Assembly (NCBI GenBank): GCA_947034895.1
Contig: OX344762.1
Span: forward strand, 70,550,981-70,614,980
Source: Rhytidiadelphus loreus
Lineage: Eukaryota; Streptophyta; Bryopsida; Hypnales; Hylocomiaceae
Length of the DNA stretch: 64,000 bases
Direction: 5' to 3'
The notes beneath the pieces are model-generated. The model was given only the letters and a program-made list of their open reading frames with translations, had not been told where the DNA came from and searched no databases. The position numbers were made by a program, and so were the translations under genes. Shown here one piece after another: positions 2 through 41,579 of the stretch (positions within the stretch are counted from its first letter, which is position 1; the number at the start of each line of letters is the position of its first letter).

Positions 2-1774
2 GAATTAACCCCCAGAGGACAACAACGTGCACAAAGGAGAAGGGCGCAACGTGTATCTCATGAACAACTTCCAGAACCAAATATTCGTGTAGAGGTCCAG
101 GGCCCTGTTGAACCAGTACTTGGAGTTGCTCAGGCGCAATTCCAAGCACCTGATGAACCAACTCTTGGAGTTGTTGATGTCATGGCTGCTGCAGACACCA
201 TACAAAGCTTGAGGGTGCAATTACAAGACCGAGGTGATGAACTACATTCTCTATATGAAGATGTGGGCAAGTTACGAGAAGACATCACGCTCAAAGACAG
301 AGTAATTGCTCAACAAGCACGTGACATAGAGGAGCTTCGGTAAGCTCTACAAGCAGAAGAAATGATGAACGAAGGTCAAGATCCACGAGGACATGCACAA
401 GGACCTCCTCGGGATTCTTAAATTCTGAGGCAAAATGCTCCAGGTGATGCTGCCATGTCTACACAAGAAGATTCATTGGCCTTTCCCGAAATAATGGCCA
501 CCGGCAACGGACCAATGCAGACTGAAGTTCGGGGCATGGGTATGGACAACAACCTTGAGCTCAACAACTTGCGAGGCGAAAATCAAACATTACAAAATCG
601 TTTGCATGCCTTGGTGGAGCAGTACTACCAATGGAAGTTGGCATGCGTGTTCACCGTTGACAAGACACGACAACTGGTAGCAGAGTTCAAGAAATTGGAC
701 CACTACTACAGTGAGCACAATCAAGAAAGGGTGTTTGGCTTGACTTCATGGGCCCTTGTGGATGATCTTTTCAGTCCCAACATGGCAATCATTGAGCTTG
801 ATGGTGGAAAAGCAATCATTGATTGGTCCAAACACAATTGGGATTTCAAAAACCAACTTGGGTCGAAGGTCGACTACAAAGGCAACCCGTTGTTGGAGTG
901 GCCAAATCTTTCAAGTTTTGTGCACGACGGGACCACATGTCCCATTTGTATGAATCCATTTGGCCCTGAAGGTGGAATGCAGTTGGGCACGTGCAACCAT
1001 GTATAGCACCCATTTTGCCTCATCAGTTTCATGATTGTTCGTCGTCGGTGCGCAATGTGCAAGGCTCCCTTCCACGAGCGCTTGTACGAGTTGTTTGGCT
1101 TGGTCCCATACATGCCACCACATTGGGAATACAATGCCACGAATGCCCCAGATCACCATAGAATGTGGGGAACAGACTTGGTGTGGAGTTGGAAATTACA
1201 AATGACATCGTTGGACAAGACACAAGTCGCTGCTAAATGTGGTTGGGAGACTAACCCCGATCAAATTGTCCAAGTCTGCCACCATTTGATTCCGATGAAA
1301 GACAAGCATAGCCAAGGACGGCGGAATTTTTTCTTTCAATGCTTCAATGGACATTGGGACGAGGTTGGACTCAAGTTTCAATTTGGACCTCACCCTCGGC
1401 GATGGTTATGGGGCGTTGATGGAGTTCGAGTCACCGATGACAATGGAATTTGTATTGGGGAGGACCCTGACATGCCCGACCCCGCGGAGCTTGCTCAATT
1501 ATCGAAATCTGAGTGGAGGGAAACTTTCAGAAACGAAGGGCTGGATTTTTTGCTTGAACAACATAGCCCGGATACACGCCGAGCTCTGGAGAGTCTCAAG
1601 CAATCACAAATCATGAGGGCCATTCTAGAAGAAGACGGACCAGCGAGGAGAACTCGGTCTGCGGTTCGTAGACTTCAACTAGGCTCCAATGAAGATTTTC
1701 CAATGCAACGCGGCACACACGACAACGAGGCTGGACCTAGTGGCACTGCAAACAGTCCAATGAACATCGACTGA
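2..1774 (+). pseudogene. RING-H2 zinc-finger protein pseudogene with coiled-coil N-terminus
   Basis: One reading frame is open from the window edge to a TGA at 1772 apart from three stops: TAA at 341, TAA at 419 and TAG at 1004. The first ~110 codons are charged and heptad-like (around LRVQLQDRGDELHSLYEDV), consistent with a coiled coil. A RING-H2 finger follows: CPIC near 940, then C-x-H (TCNH) just before the TAG, then HPFC and CAMC after it. The TAG sits exactly in the two-residue gap between the fourth and fifth zinc ligands, so all eight ligands (C3H2C3) survive around it. The C-terminal ~230 codons contain an unrecognised conserved-looking region (GTDLVWSWK, QCFNGHWDEVG) and a basic patch. 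RING-H2 proteins usually act as ubiquitin E3 ligases; here the stops argue for a dead copy. A member of a transposon-dispersed family is possible. The 5' end lies outside the window. Confidence 0.7.
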
Positions 1775-6221: not shown

Positions 6222-6471
6222 GCCAAGCTTGTCGGATTGACTTCTTTACATTTGTCATCTTGGCCTCATCATCTTGGACTTCAATTCACTTTGAGCTCCT
6301 TGGGAGTCTACTTGGGTGACAAATGGCCCTAGTTAGCTGTTGAGGTGATGTAAAAGTCAGTTCAAGCAGTTGATTGGCGCTAACTACTATTTTGTCCTTT
6401 TCATTTGGTGTAATAGCCTCTTCTACAGTTCTACCTCCTCCAAGAAAACGTTTGCATTCGTCGTGAACGCA

Positions 6472-9400
6472 ATGGGAAGTCAACGAAAGCAAACAAAAGA
6501 ATGGGAACCGTGGTATAATTTCTCTGAGAACGGGGGGAAAGTGAGTTGTGTATTTTGCAATGCAACATTCACCTATAAACACGAGCGCGCTTTTGCTCAC
6601 TTTGGATATGGTGCGAAGTCCGAGAGGTCAATTTGTCGTAATGCAACGCGAGCCGTGCACCACCGATTTGCAAATTGTGCAAACTTTGTTCCTCAACGAT
6701 TGAGCCCCGAGGACATGTATGAAGGAGAATCAATTCCCACTGGTCCATCAAGAGCAACTCCAGTTGCAAGTTCAAGCCAATCCTTTCAAAACGAAGTGAC
6801 GGGAGGGGGTTCAGGTGACGCCCAAGCTGAAGGGGTTACTCTCCCTGAAGGGAATGATGCAATACAAAGGTCCCAAAGTCTCGTTGCATCAAATTCCACA
6901 AGATCTGGGTCATTACTTCAGCAACGTATGAAGGATGCTTTTAATGTTGCGAAGAGGAAGGAGTTGGATGACAAGTGGGCATCATTTTTTTACGAGGCGA
7001 ACGTGCCATTTAATGTGGCAAGAAATCCAGCCTTTATTGAGGCAGTGAGGGCAACCTCAATGGCAAGGTTTGAATACAGTCCACCTTCTTACCATCATTT
7101 CAGGACGAAATTGATTGAACCGAAGAGGTTGCAGATCGAGAAGCAAATTGAAACCAAAGTTGGTTTTGCAGTGAAACATTATGGGGTGACAATATGCACT
7201 GATGGCTGGGATGACGTGAACCGGAGGCCTCTAATGAATGTAATGATGTCGTGCCCTACCGGTGATGTATTTTTGGGGGCCATTGACACCACCGGGCAAA
7301 AGAAGTCCATGTGCTACATAGCGGACCAGATGAAGGTATTCATTGAGAAAGTGGGTTCAAAGTACGTGACACAGGTTTGTACAGATAATGCAGCGAATAT
7401 GCTTGGAGCATTGGATGATATCGTTCGCACGTATCCACACATTTTCAAGCAGGGGTGCATGGCACATGCTTTGGATCTCATGTTGGAAGATTGGGCCAAA
7501 GTACCAGAATTCAAAGATTTAATTCAGAGGGCAAGAAGATTGTGCCAGTACATTCGGAACCATCACACGACCATGTCGGTATTCCGGAAGTTGAGTCCGA
7601 CCCTTCAGTTAGTAGTGCCCAGCGAAACCCGCTTTGCTTGTAATTTTCTCATGTTGCAGCGATTGGAGAAACTTCGCGGAGTACTGCTGTGGTTAAAAGA
7701 CCATGCGCGCGTTCAAAATTACTTTGATGGTCTGCGAGACAGACAAAATGCGGAGCAAGCAGCTACAGCTTCATGTAATGTGGTGTCAACTATCGAAGAC
7801 GTGGGCTTCTGGCAACGATGTGCAAATTACGTGCACATGACTGAAGACGTGTTGAAGGCATTGCGCATATTTGATGGCCGAGAACCAGCTATGGGTCGGG
7901 CGTGGCTCGTAATGCACAATTTGAGGGCGCATGTGTTTTCTTTAAGAGGGCCACCCTTCAACCTACGAGATGACATAGCCACCACCATGGAGGAGTCTTT
8001 CACATCCAGGTGGGACATGGTGTTCACGGATGTTCACTATGCTGGGGCCCTTCTAAATCCGTATCTCTTGGATAACGTGGCACTTAGGGTTGATGGAGTT
8101 GCACTCCGTGCATTGTATCGAGTCATCCGCAAAATGGAAAATGTAGTGGGTGTGGAGTTTAACAACGTGTTGGCGGAATTAACAGAATTCGAGGAGGGCA
8201 CGGGGCCATACAGTGCAGCAGAGACACCTGACATTCGAGCGACACAGATGCTTCCTCACCAATGGTGGCACAGGGTTGGAGATCGAGCACTATCTAAGAT
8301 TGTCGTTCGTATCTTGTCATTGACGTGTTCAGCATGTTCATGTGAAAGGAATTGGAGTATGTATTCCTTCGTCCACAACAAGGTCCGGAATCGGTTAGCC
8401 CCCGAGAAGGCTGAGTCATTGGTATATATTTATACCAATAGCCGTGTACTTCAGCAAAGACCAGGGGTCGATCCTGTTCGTTGGTATGATGCTAATATCC
8501 TCTCGGAGGATTCTGATCCAAATGCCCTTGGCCCCGTTCCAATGGCTGAACGCAATCGTGAATTTGATGCGATGGTAGCTGAGGAAGAAGAAGAGGCTGA
8601 TGTAGAAGCTAACCGAGCACCCCGAGAATACCAACCAAATCCAGAGTTGTGGAGGGCGGGGGCTGATCACCTTGCAGAAGCTAGAAATTACTACGGAGAT
8701 GGTCATGAAGTGGAAGAGGAAGTCCTCCCTAGTCGCTGGGGCCCTTGGGGAGCCGATCCTCGCCGAAGTCCTACATCCATTGGCGATGAAAATGTAGTTG
8801 TTTCTGAAGTGCAACCTTTGTCATCGTCTTCCGAGAGTGATCACCCGGCCGCAGTGGACGCCAATGATGATAATGTTATCTCGAACAATGACGACAACCT
8901 TCCTTTGGAAAACGAAGGGGGAAATGGAAATGGCAGTGAGAATTTGAGGAACAATGCAACTCAGAATACTGAAGGATCCGTTTGCGATCGTGATGGCAAT
9001 AGGGGGCCCAGAGGAGTGGGGGGCCGCGATAGCAACAGAGTTGTTGGAGGACACCATGGCCAAAACATTGGAAATACAAGGATGGCACGACCGATCACAA
9101 GACATGTTGTGGAGGTTAATGCAGTGGAAAGAACGCGTTTTGACCTTGAACATTTAGATCACAATGATGTTTTTGCGTTTACTGACCCGCTTGAAGACGA
9201 AGCCCATATACCACCACCAGTTGCAGTGCATACTATTATTTCTAACCCTTCATCTCCCGCAACTTCAAGTGCTCCTTGTCGACCTTCCGAAGAAGTGCTA
9301 GGCTCAGTGGGAAATGTTGCAATGACGACTCAAAGCATTTCAAATGTTACAACGGGTGGTAGACACCGTACCGCCTTTCAACCCGCAATTCACCACACTA

Positions 9401-9954
9401 TGGGTGAATATCAACAAGGACGTGGAAGGAGTTTCGTCCGTGGAAGAGCAAGAGGTCGTGCAACGATTGGAGGCCGTGATATTAGAGGTGGACGAAACAA
9501 TAACGAAGCGTTGTCATCGAGGCCCCCTAAACGCCCTCTTCTAGGAATTGGGGTCCGAGACCCGAACGTGGTGATAGAGCCATTTTTGAATACGTATGTC
9601 CCAGGACCAACTTTGTCCACTCCAGTGTATGTCGTTCCTCGAGTACAAGGAGGCCCCATTATAAATTCTGACGCGGAGGACCCTAGAGCTCAACGGCACA
9701 AGAAGTTTAAACGTAGTCGTAGGCATGGTCAAACAGCTGTGGAGCTTCGAAATGAGAACTCGGAAGTGGAAAACCAGTGGACCGCAGACGGTGACGATGG
9801 AGAAGATGAACGTGGAACTAGTGAAGTTGGTGATGATGAAGACGACCCTGATTGTGATGAGGCACCAACAGATGATGATGTGGTCATTCGAGATGTTGCA
9901 TTACCAGATCCGGGTACACAAGAAGTTCGCAGATCAAGTCGTTTCAACAATTGA
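6472..9954 (+). CDS. hAT transposase (BED finger, DUF659, hATC) with long disordered C-terminal tail
   Basis: Uninterrupted 1160-codon gene. The frame is open upstream to 6370, but the leading 34 residues look non-coding and the ATG at 6472 (MGSQRKQTKEW) precedes the first domain. Residues from that start: BED-like zinc finger C26, C29, H43, C55; DUF659 region about 215-390 with RNase-H-fold acidic residues D244 (CTDGWDD) and D305 (CTDNAANM), plus the hAT C-x2-H pair C329/H332; hATC dimerisation region about 590-665 with E625 in CERNWS, the position of the third catalytic acid in hAT enzymes. All catalytic residues are present. Past residue ~670 comes an unusual ~490-residue tail: acidic and polar runs, an RGR/RGG box about 983-1009, a basic KKFKRSRR nuclear-signal-like stretch, then an acidic end. 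Likely role: cut-and-paste transposition. The length and lack of stops suggest recent activity. Confidence 0.9.
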   Translation: MGSQRKQTKEWEPWYNFSENGGKVSCVFCNATFTYKHERAFAHFGYGAKSERSICRNATRAVHHRFANCANFVPQRLSPEDMYEGESIPTGPSRATPVASSSQSFQNEVTGGGSGDAQAEGVTLPEGNDAIQRSQSLVASNSTRSGSLLQQRMKDAFNVAKRKELDDKWASFFYEANVPFNVARNPAFIEAVRATSMARFEYSPPSYHHFRTKLIEPKRLQIEKQIETKVGFAVKHYGVTICTDGWDDVNRRPLMNVMMSCPTGDVFLGAIDTTGQKKSMCYIADQMKVFIEKVGSKYVTQVCTDNAANMLGALDDIVRTYPHIFKQGCMAHALDLMLEDWAKVPEFKDLIQRARRLCQYIRNHHTTMSVFRKLSPTLQLVVPSETRFACNFLMLQRLEKLRGVLLWLKDHARVQNYFDGLRDRQNAEQAATASCNVVSTIEDVGFWQRCANYVHMTEDVLKALRIFDGREPAMGRAWLVMHNLRAHVFSLRGPPFNLRDDIATTMEESFTSRWDMVFTDVHYAGALLNPYLLDNVALRVDGVALRALYRVIRKMENVVGVEFNNVLAELTEFEEGTGPYSAAETPDIRATQMLPHQWWHRVGDRALSKIVVRILSLTCSACSCERNWSMYSFVHNKVRNRLAPEKAESLVYIYTNSRVLQQRPGVDPVRWYDANILSEDSDPNALGPVPMAERNREFDAMVAEEEEEADVEANRAPREYQPNPELWRAGADHLAEARNYYGDGHEVEEEVLPSRWGPWGADPRRSPTSIGDENVVVSEVQPLSSSSESDHPAAVDANDDNVISNNDDNLPLENEGGNGNGSENLRNNATQNTEGSVCDRDGNRGPRGVGGRDSNRVVGGHHGQNIGNTRMARPITRHVVEVNAVERTRFDLEHLDHNDVFAFTDPLEDEAHIPPPVAVHTIISNPSSPATSSAPCRPSEEVLGSVGNVAMTTQSISNVTTGGRHRTAFQPAIHHTMGEYQQGRGRSFVRGRARGRATIGGRDIRGGRNNNEALSSRPPKRPLLGIGVRDPNVVIEPFLNTYVPGPTLSTPVYVVPRVQGGPIINSDAEDPRAQRHKKFKRSRRHGQTAVELRNENSEVENQWTADGDDGEDERGTSEVGDDEDDPDCDEAPTDDDVVIRDVALPDPGTQEVRRSSRFNN

Positions 9955-37182: not shown

Positions 37183-40100
37183 TTATTCGGGTGGCATATT
37201 TGAGACTAAAAAATCTGAAGTCAGGTGTCTCGAGAAGCACACCTCGTCCAGCCAAGCTACATTTCGCTCTCCTCCTGCAATGTTTTGATATTTACTGGTT
37301 ACCCCTTAACAGGTACAACCAAACCTAATCAAAATGTCATTGTCGCACTAGAGAGTGCAACTCGATAATTGTAGGCCTAAGATCAATTGAAGATACAAGC
37401 TCCTGAATGAATGAAGATGGTGTATCCAACAGCTTTTGAACCTAAGAATATGTACACGCTGTTTTACTGCGGTGTCCCTGTTGGACGCTGAATACATTTT
37501 TCACCTAGTAATCACCACAGATTGATATACGAACCACTTTTCAAAGAAAACTTGGGAAACTGCTGCCTGTCACCGTTGCCGTTGCCTTCGGGCAGCAGGC
37601 TTTGTCCTCTGTCGCAGAATTGAGTCTTTGAATTTTCTTGATTTTGAGTTTACTTCCAGGAACTCCAGGTATTGTTTAGGAGGCGCTGGAGGAAGTCCTG
37701 ATCTGTTCCCTGTACAATGCAGTAGGAATTTCCTTATAAACTTCTGAAATGAGCTGATTTCTTAGGTCAAGTGAACACCAATCGAAGCTGTTGATTTGTA
37801 TCATGCAATTATAATAGCTAATACGGCACAAATTCCTTTGCCATATAACACTGATAAATTTCTGTTTCCAGACGAAATTTTTTGCCCAGATGCTTAGCAG
37901 TCATTTCTAATGTCAACCCAGAGAAGACATTGAGCAATGGAGCAAAGCGGTTAAAAGTTATGGAGTTGAATGAAAGTGGGATATGTGTTAAAGCAAATAG
38001 TGGGATGTTCAGGCGTATCACTCCAAAGAATGTGATCATTTTATAGTAGAATTGTATCGCTGTGGTCATAGGAATAGTGACATGAAAGTCAAAAAGTTAC
38101 AATTGTATCTATGTGGTCATTGGAATAGTGACATGAAAGTCAAAAAGTTACAAGGTCAAATGATAATGAGACACATGTTAAATAATAAATAATAAAAAAT
38201 AATAAGTTGGGGTCTATCATTCCCGAGAGCTAATTTCTAATGCATAATAGAATTGCAGTGTGGTTTAGAAATAGTACCATTCTAAGGTTGTCAAATAGGG
38301 TTTTATAAAAAAAGAATTGTACTGAAGATCATATGAAAAGAGCCATCCGAAAGTTACATTTTTGGTTGGGTAAAAATACTAGCGATTAGTCGCTTGTTGC
38401 TAAAACGACAGAGCATTAAATTCATAACCCAAAAAGCAACATTTTAACTTTGTGAACCGTGATCACTCCATGATTTTCCCAGAGACACGATTCTCAAATC
38501 AGCACATTCCCAACTAAGGGCTTCTACATTCACGGATAAAGAACAGGATCGGTAGAAATCTTACCATGAGATGAAATCCACTTGGAAGCGGACAATGCGT
38601 CATGAATCCACTCTCGATCGCGAGGTTGTCCAAAATCAGCCAGTGGTGCTGATGAATAGTCTGGACCTGGCCTCACCTCGTCCATCTGCAAACCATGCCG
38701 CGAAAAGATTAGCACTACAAATTTATGAAACCAATCGTGTTCTGCTCGAACGCACGAATGCATGCTGTCATATAAAAGAACATGCATGAATCTTAGATAA
38801 ATGGACCAACAGTTCACTATGGCTACTGTAAGAGAACTTGATTAAATACACAGCCGAGAGAAATCAATTTTAGAAGAGTAACAGAACGATTTGGGTTCCT
38901 CTTGCCCCCTGAATGTCCAAGGTCTATTTTGAGACCCTTGGAATTTGATCTAAACTAAACAAAAAAGTCAAAAAATTTGGAAGTGTTATCGATATTCTTG
39001 AATTGTAACCGCAACAACATAACATATGGATTAAAAGATTATAAGGATTGATCACGAGAGGGTTAAAGATTTGAAAGTGATTTGAAGTCTTTCAATCCTC
39101 TTTTTAGATGCGAAATCTAAAATTATGGTAATGAAAAATATAATGGGGCTACAGGACATAACATGTAAAACCATAATCAATCAACGGCACCTCAAAATCT
39201 ACCCTACAATTATTTTAAGAGAACTTGCAATGTAAAATCTTTACCAAGATCTAGTGTATTTGAGACTCATCTCCTAGATCTCTTAAAATCAACAAAATCA
39301 AGTTTTGCAATGAACCCCTTGAACAATCTTGAATAGAAAATTTTTATTTTTTTCCTTTCTAAATTTGGATTTACGATGCTAAAAATAAACTTGAAAGACT
39401 ATTCACCTAGAATGGAAAATTAGTAATTAGTAATTTGGTAAGATGTTATCTAACTTCAAAGTTTTGAATGTGGAGCCCTGGGAATTTAAGGATTAAGATG
39501 GAGACATGGAAAAGATTGCATTTACATACCCAGCCTGGTCCATTTATGGAGGGGCCATCCCAACCGATATGCGCAACATGTTTTACGTCGGTTGGATAGC
39601 CTATATCCAGCTCGTTATTTCTCCACACTGCCATGCAAGAGGATGATTAGGCAAGCTTAATATAGAGCACATTCAAATCTGGCGAGACATAGGTGGTTAT
39701 CAACGCTGCCGGAGGTAAGCTCACCAAGTAGATGAGATAGTGCTGTCACAGCTTTCCCCACTTTCCAGAACCTCCGCTTCTTAGGTTTTTCAGATAAAGA
39801 AGATGAATCATGTGGTTGTGTATGGCGAGTGTCTACTGTTTGTTGAGCAAGTCTATCTGTACATAGAACCACAGTCATGAGTATCACATCAACGCTAAAT
39901 TAAGACAATGACAGAGGGTATACTTAGTGATGTAGTTTCCGGTTCAAAAATGAGACATTTCTGCTCGAGAATGTTGACTAGGAACACGAAACACATGACA
40001 ATCCTACTGAGGTATAGTACTTCCCCACATCTCAGGATATGAGGTGGACCAGAACATAAGATAGACTACAGCTACTTGTCTACTGCTCAGTCACAAATGT

Positions 40101-41579
40101 GATTTTATATCCTCCAGAATCGCAAGTACTGTAGCTAATTTGCATTCCATTAGATACACCGCTCAATAATCAAATATTTCCGCAATTTCTTCTTGTGCAT
40201 CGATTTCATTACCTGCATTACTGAGCCGCCTTGAAGTGGAACGTTTTGGCACACTGCGATATGAAATGACCGAGTTTTTTCCCGAACTCTCGGCTGGGGG
40301 GTCCTCATCGATGAGAGATGGCGTCGTTCCAATAATGTAGGGTTGAACTGCTTTGACAACCCTCTCTTTCATCTCAATTGCTGCTGATTTATCAGCAAAA
40401 CCAAATCCTCGAAAGCTGCCGTTCTGTCGACACAAAAGTTTAGCATGAATGACACCTTAGAATGTTCACTGGCAAAGACACGTCCTTCATCTCTTAGTCC
40501 ATGAGTGACACTTTTTGTTAAACGAAGGCCAGAAGAGAGATATGATACCTCTTGACGTATGACGAAGAACCGGTCTACGGGGGCAGTGAAAGATTGTGGC
40601 TTTCGCATTGTGTGTTCGAATAACATTTGTCCATCCTGTTCAATGGCCATGGAAATTCAGTGGTGTTGAATGACAATATAAAAAACAGTGGTGCCAAGAC
40701 AAAACTTGAAATGCCGCAATCTGACCATCCTGTTCAATGCCCACGGAAATTCGTGGGACACGCACAATTATCGAAAACTTTCAGACGGACTTCATTCCAC
40801 CTCTCGAAATTTCACTCCCTGACAAAGAACTGGTTACGGAAAAAATGATGAGATATCACACAATAATCCTCAAAACTGACCAGCAAATCGTGAAGCTGAA
40901 AATTTATCATCCCGTCTCCTAAAGGTCGCATGTGAAGCTCCCCGACAGTGCCACTGCCGTGCCATCCTAAGCCTCCCCCCGCGGCTTCGAATACTGTAAC
41001 GGCACACCTTGCCTGCCATGAAACGTTTTTATGGTTGCATGTGTTAGTGAAGCGATCAAATGTTTACTGTATAAAATATATACCGTTGCGAGGTTGCCTG
41101 TGAGTAGCTGATAGCTGGTAGCTGCAAAACTAACCCTACTATAAGCTGTTGTCGAATCAATAAATCTATACCGGTCTCCGAGAAATATATATTCTAACAT
41201 CGATGCTATTAACAAGCTCAGCCTTTCAAAATAGTGTAAAAAGACACAGGAATTTTTCATCCACAGGATGCCTATACCTCATTTCTCAAAGGATATTAGT
41301 AACGTCAAGATTAAATTATTGATTGACTGTTAAGTAGGCGATTATCCCGTTTCAACTGAAACAAAAGTGGAGCAGAATCACGGCGAGTATTCCACCGCGA
41401 GTTTGGATACTCTAATGAGGTTTTCAAAATCGCAGCAATCGGACGAAAATTGGAATTACAGTCGTACCACATAGTTCGAAGGCCATTCCATAAATTCCAT
41501 CCTTCAGATACTCCAGAGACACAATGTGCGCCAATTTGATCTCACAAGCGTGCTCATTCCACACAATTTCTCTTTGAGC
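37183..41579 (-). CDS. WH1-basic-CRIB protein, WASP-like ROP/Rho effector candidate (spliced; 5' exon(s) unresolved)
   Basis: Eight exons, GT-AG introns: 41,579-41,460; 41,012-40,881; 40,635-40,549; 40,423-40,213; 39,856-39,725; 39,627-39,530; 38,685-38,565; 37,274-37,183 (TAA). Phases agree throughout; total 993 nt, 330 residues plus stop. First four exons: a helix (AQREIVWNEHACEIKLAHIV), then a WH1-like fold (ARCAVTVFEA, GWHGSGTVGEL, FQLHDLL+DGQMLFEH, FFVIRQE+NGSFRGFGFADK) matching the WASP WH1 pattern L-x-D-x-x-D-G-x-x-L-[WF]-E and [GL]-x-F-A. Then a Ser-rich linker, basic KPKKRRFWKVGK, and a plant CRIB motif IGYPTDVKHVAHIGWD. The end (WIHDALSASKW, VAWLDEV) is short, with no proline-rich or VCA segment. 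CRIB motifs bind GTP-loaded Rho/ROP; WH1 domains bind proline-rich partners. Start codon not found: a 12-nt exon at 41,622-41,611 is possible and the first donor (ACT|GTAATT) is the least certain. Alternative: a RIC-like effector with another PH-like fold. Confidence 0.7.
38050..38151. repeat. 51-bp tandem duplication in an intron
   Basis: Two adjacent 51-bp copies (38,050-38,100 and 38,101-38,151) containing GGAATAGTGACATGAAAGTC, with a few differences. Lies in the last intron of the WH1-CRIB gene. Confidence 0.9.

Follow-up and report, generated by a model that had tools for sequence, protein, structure and literature searches.

An extended RIC-type gene of the moss Rhytidiadelphus loreus joins a predicted EVH1/PHear-like head to a plant CRIB motif

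The moss Rhytidiadelphus loreus carries on contig OX344762.1 (assembly GCA_947034895.1, positions 70,550,981 to 70,614,980; this whole stretch of 64,000 nucleotides is called the window, and positions are counted within it) a spliced gene whose product combines a predicted folded head, a basic stretch, a CRIB motif and a proline tail. The way in which ROP GTPases select and activate their effectors is an open question, in part because the RICs of flowering plants look unstructured. As far as seen in a limited literature search, which does not establish priority, a RIC-type protein extended by an EVH1/PHear-like head appears to be new. The gene lies on the minus strand, and its eight coding exons (41500-37570) form a coding sequence of 954 nt that specifies 317 amino acids and ends in TGA; GT/AG borders are found at all seven junctions, which are in phase, and neither a stop nor a frame break interrupts the coding sequence.

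Coding exon 1 (41468..41500) contains the start ATG, encodes MEFMEWPSNYV and ends at the donor gtacga. Of 34 relatives in the alignment, 29 share this N-terminus, and five (P0004, P0012, P0020, P0030 and P0034) begin later. The predicted PH-superfold domain (residues 8-115; 40331..41479 including introns) starts in earnest in exon 2 (40881..41012), which includes F19 and W28 and was matched in the search of the moss's own genome, continues in exon 3 (40549..40635) with F78 and F79, and is completed in exon 4 (40213..40423) by its last strand and a C-terminal helix that is followed by a linker; this exon includes Met102. Exon 5 (39725..39856) encodes linker, the basic stretch KPKKRR and the pre-CRIB helix region, and its basic and pre-CRIB part (KPKKRRFWKVGKAVTALSHLL, 39726..39788) aligns with the N-terminus of angiosperm RICs. 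The CRIB motif IGYPTDVKHVAHIGWDG (39554..39604) lies within exon 6 (39530..39627), and exon 7 (38565..38685) carries a conserved post-CRIB segment (MDEVRPGPDYSSAPLADFGQP...). Exon 8 (37570..37709) encodes the proline tail with the motif PPAPPKQY (37669..37692), of the form PPxPPxx[FY], and a basic C-terminus up to the stop TGA at 37570-37572. Within the intron that separates exon 7 from exon 8, a near-perfect direct repeat of ~50 bases is visible by eye at about 38055-38155.

This strongly supported gene model was fixed by relatives. A preliminary description of the locus had proposed eight in-phase exons from 41579 to 37183 with a coding sequence of 993 nt; the CRIB and the main exons were right, but the first exon had been read in the wrong frame (the start ATG is in another of its frames) and the last exon was wrong, and both extent and length are corrected here. 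An early model of 284 residues lacked the first exon and had a wrong small last exon; measured with it as query, the relative P0001 is 95% identical and Ceratodon P0003 83%. The N-terminus of P0001 is MEFMEWPSNYVARC, and its 317-residue open frame fits on a contig of 1,771 bases, against a genomic span of 3.9 kb for the moss gene, so P0001 is most likely a spliced transcript. When P0001 was searched against the moss genome, matches (seven exons, E<=10) were found at this locus only. Two relatives, P0038 and P0041, appear to be unspliced, their reading frames running on into introns at matching junctions (VIRQE/NGSF, traced for exon 3 in P0038; /ARCAV; HDLL/, with the slash marking the junction). 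An assembly of head and CRIB exons from two neighbouring genes, or a pseudogene, is hardly credible: 34 relatives are colinear with the moss protein and unite head and CRIB in one chain, some of them (P0001, P0002) as a whole open frame on a short contig, and the moss locus is free of stops and frame breaks. The order of head, basic stretch and CRIB in one gene, as originally described, is upheld.

The CRIB is canonical and of plant type (PTDVKHVAHIGWDG), with a Pfam PBD E value of 2.7e-5 and 24.8 bits against a cut-off of 21.3; together with the in-phase GT/AG junctions this lies far above chance, and the spliced CRIB gene of the preliminary description is real. Homology to RICs extends over the pre-CRIB helix, the CRIB and the post-CRIB segment PSWMNEFR...DFSSAPL. 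The pre-CRIB helix (MTTKMKGLLKGLRYISQIF) forms the start of RICs such as P0045 and P0043; P0045, from Amborella, shares 60% identity with the head-bearing P0009 along a BLASTP stretch of 97 columns, from the RIC start to the post-CRIB segment. Sequence comparison thus strongly indicates a RIC-type CRIB half that is homologous beyond the CRIB itself. A review describes RICs as generally small and unstructured (PMC11194304). Small size and the lack of any other folded domain are typical of RICs rather than defining; because a folded head is predicted here, the protein is called extended RIC-type and not a typical RIC. Ahead of the CRIB, the head-bearing proteins have 180-246 residues; in the RIC-like proteins, of which 114 of 123 were measured, the median is 29 and the range 15-143. 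From the identity of the CRIB, binding to ROP-GTP would be expected, and the proposal that the protein is a ROP effector is retained as probable.

The CRIB protein P0167 of Aristolochia fimbriata has an extra VSNK exactly at the position of the junction between exons 6 and 7 (PSW/MNE), which hints at a shared intron position in RIC genes. A PBD search of the whole moss genome gave four places, with six candidates scored. Two of the places have a GWPTDVxHVxHVTFD CRIB and are read as RopGAPs; at one of these putative loci a frame with EGIFRINAENSHHEHV, read as RhoGAP, follows. Of the four, the present gene alone has a CRIB of RIC type, the search giving a lower bound for the genome. The remaining place, C1:10277624 (L014), is a sub-threshold CRIB-like match of 19.7 bits with an internal stop, possibly a CRIB remnant or a chance match.

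The head (~108 residues) is strongly predicted to adopt the PH superfold, in the branch that includes EVH1, Dcp1, RanBD and PHear domains: the predicted structure has seven strands and a C-terminal helix, its Foldseek and VIA comparisons give EVH1-branch matches, and its fold matches that of Mena EVH1. The fold search suggested in the preliminary description returned a PH/EVH1-class fold, as had been anticipated there. Fold search alone cannot name the subfamily, because VIA ranks the CARM1 N-domain and Dcp1 level with EVH1. The narrower label, WH1, is not supported by sequence. No WH1 match (PF00568) is listed in the 34 members at E<=10, in searches where HMMER filters drop most matches above ~0.1; a WH1 search of the moss genome also found none, an uninformative result, being exon-wise and with silent controls. 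In hhalign comparisons, the head scored at or near shuffle level against the WH1 domains of N-WASP, WASP and Las17. Against a single NECAP1 sequence it reached Prob 81, a value attained by 0 of 60 shuffles, and against a profile of three NECAP sequences Prob 84 with z 11. The NECAP family PF07933 is touched by 24 of the 34 members (best E 0.0012); among five heads scanned alone, four gave 11.5-14.6 bits and one gave none, all below the cut-off of 29.2. By sequence, the head is closest to the NECAP PHear domain and not to the WH1 of WASP, at the level of distant kinship. A sequence search of PDB with the head profile gave NECAP1 at E 0.5 only, along with RRM proteins that aligned through a GFGF-like stretch, and was treated as weak.

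These comparisons bear on the suggestion that the gene is a trimmed WASP relic, in which WH1 and CRIB were inherited jointly from WASP and the VCA tail was lost. The order of domains is the one such a relic would have. Set against it are the absence of a listed WH1 match in all 34 members, hhalign scores for WASP far under those for NECAP, and the RIC-type flanks of the CRIB; in addition, a family survey did not find WASP in plants (PMC3298513), and the limited literature search on WH1 with CRIB in plants yielded nothing beyond this survey. A WASP relic is thus very improbable and ranks last of the three rivals that deserve weighing.

In the first of these rivals, the head would be a PHear domain of NECAP type with AP-2 or accessory proteins as its partners, and the protein would thereby couple active ROP to clathrin coats; the tail would be a separate ligand. 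NECAP is the best sequence match by hhalign, PF07933 is touched by most members, and NECAP has the highest identity (20-23%) among the VIA rows shown, but the EVH1 domains of Spred2 and Falafel likewise reach 22% in the Foldseek rows, and single heads score below the family cut-off. In NECAP, S87 and R112 hold phospho-mu2 (PMC6739873); as placed by hhalign, the equivalent of S87 is serine in 8 of 34 members, and that of R112 (residue 96) is lysine in 19 of 34 and never arginine. WxxF motifs, known from NECAPs by the title of a reference, occur in some form in 12 of 34 members, seven of which (P0022-P0027 and P0029) have WK[VM]F in the C-terminal tail; none is listed for P0001, and the moss protein itself is without WxxF. 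The genome already holds two NECAP genes, at C2:78221830 (L001) and C2:81465953-81467067 (L002/L003). An endocytic adaptor of this kind is judged unlikely, though it stands first among the rivals. The PHear domain of L001 sits in one uninterrupted frame.

A search with the head passed 331 proteins, and the best 120 of these were examined; what follows on named lineages holds for this set. Above the first head-less form stand 37 rows, each with all or most of the head. Twelve of the 37 have species names (three mosses, one lycophyte, six ferns and two conifers), and two more labelled Gb_ are read as Ginkgo. Two further head fragments, P0038 and P0041, were lower-ranked or came only from the search for relatives with the early model. 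No angiosperm is among the named head-bearing relatives, and liverworts, hornworts, Selaginella, algae and Physcomitrium are not among the names either, which is not proof of absence, since both head searches start from shared words and unseen lineages may have been missed. Nine short proteins share the linker as well: one each from the conifers Cryptomeria and Taxus, one labelled Gb_ and six that carry no species name. Eight of the nine start at a methionine aligned with Met102, in the last helix of the head, and that of Taxus starts ten residues later; P0048, for instance, aligns from its residue 1 to P0009 from residue 102 onward (49%, 198 columns). The short forms look like head-less paralogs that retain a stump, the alternative being a missed upstream exon in each.

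In a tree of 34 full-length proteins, the nine short forms and 35 of 123 RIC-like proteins, built from few columns and, being itself unrooted, displayed with a midpoint root, the short forms make one branch and the RICs another (100/97). A group of 23 rows (mosses, lycophyte, named ferns and some unnamed) splits from all others at 97/90, and the fork joining RICs to full-length rows of Ginkgo, Araucaria and Taxus type is weak (59/53). Rooted on the moss side, the tree would have the short forms and the RICs both arise within the seed-plant group. The earlier statement that known RICs lack WH1 may be better put as flowering-plant RICs having lost the head.

The tail motif PPxPPxx[FY], which resembles an EVH1 ligand in sequence, is near-invariant in the head-bearing proteins (32 of 34) and is found in its strict form in none of the nine short seed-plant proteins and none of the 123 RIC-like proteins. 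The preliminary description did not mention it. In the head, the positions equivalent to the EVH1 triad, as placed by a low-scoring alignment, are always aromatic. Two AlphaFold models appear to place the tail at the position of an EVH1 ligand, and in the model of P0009 the motif block is the sole well-predicted block of the tail. Crude pattern scans of the 34 members found no L[KR][KRS][VTI] (WH2-like) and no acidic-W pattern, and no Pfam WH2 is listed across them, in agreement with the absence of a VCA reported before.

One way to read the head and tail is as an open scaffold without a clasp, in which the EVH1-like head brings proline-rich partners (e.g., SCAR/ABI or formins) to ROP-GTP and the tail serves another reader such as SH3. 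The retained triad-equivalent residues, the fold match to Mena EVH1 and a PPxPP tail that fits several readers speak for it. Against it speak the short forms and RIC-like proteins, in which the head and the strict tail motif are missing together, and the P0009 model with its single well-predicted tail block. This scaffold is placed second among the rivals and appears a little less likely still than the endocytic adaptor.

The preferred reading is an extended RIC-type ROP effector that is shut by its own tail in the groove of the head and opened by ROP-GTP; it is about evenly balanced between right and wrong. At rest, the tail would sit in the aromatic groove of the head, so that CRIB and basic stretch lie in a closed loop. 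Capture of the CRIB by ROP-GTP at the plasma membrane would pull the loop open, and the groove or the tail would then be free to bind other proteins at the ROP membrane patch. The RICs of flowering plants would be descendants that have only the CRIB core left, head and tail ligand having been lost. Recruitment of proline-rich partners, suggested at the outset, stays plausible, with the difference that the tail of the same chain comes first among the candidates.

Several observations weigh against this self-inhibited effector. The nearest sequence relative of the head is NECAP PHear and not a proline-binding EVH1; the strict motif is missing in 2 of 34 head-bearing proteins, and a loose proline match is kept in three of the nine short forms and in four of the 123 RIC-like proteins. 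The tail of the moss model has lower confidence (63 at residues 281-290 and 52 at 271-280), alignment with the second fusion, 7lxe (EVH1-ABI1), went no further than residue 114 in either model, and AlphaFold2 might put any proline motif into a groove of EVH1 type. Finally, no more than two evolutionary losses may lie behind the shared lack of head and tail motif.

A wider proposal is more doubtful and is offered tentatively: RICs would be stumps of an ancestral effector in which an EVH1/PHear head clasped a PPxPPxx[FY] tail across the CRIB until opened by ROP-GTP. Plants would then have arrived independently at a WASP-like autoinhibited switch, which mosses, lycophytes, ferns and gymnosperms would have retained. 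A folded, possibly self-inhibiting head provides a candidate origin for RICs and a candidate switch mechanism, and the finding of one such gene in the moss genome offers a genetically simple test bed.

Elsewhere in the window, on the forward strand, 6370-9954 holds a stop-free frame of 1,194 codons with DUF659 and hAT dimerisation domains, a hAT-type transposase gene. Two adjacent open frames of 183 and 247 amino acids lie at 455-1774 (+), the former with a weak RING-like match at its end that stays below the cut-off (E 0.004).

Among known systems, RICs share with the moss protein the homologous pre-CRIB helix, the CRIB and the first post-CRIB residues, and RIC-like proteins differ in having a short pre-CRIB part and neither head nor strict tail motif. 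For Physcomitrella, one study reports a single RIC gene, Pp3c12_19130, whose silencing gave larger plants on average with unchanged solidity (PMC6322563); by description, not by sequence, it is possibly an ortholog of the present gene. The PHear domain of NECAP has the PH fold and is the best sequence match of the moss head, which differs in falling under the Pfam cut-off, in its variable phospho-mu2 contact positions and in being joined to a CRIB. The EVH1 domains of Ena/VASP and Homer resemble the head in fold and, as far as a low-scoring alignment places them, in the positions of the aromatic triad, and their PPxxF/PPxPP ligands resemble the tail motif, here in the same chain, but there is no significant sequence match. 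Ena/VASP proteins are not known to carry a CRIB. With WASP and N-WASP the moss protein shares the order of PH-fold, basic stretch and CRIB, the CRIB following the basic stretch, and, as proposed here, a closed state that a Rho GTPase would release; it differs in that its head is not a WH1 by sequence, that no VCA is seen, and that the proposed clasp is made of head and tail rather than of an autoinhibitory domain and the C helix. A WASP-like order of domains can thus arise without WASP, and the resemblance to the animal protein appears to be only superficial, a proposed WASP-like logic built from different parts.
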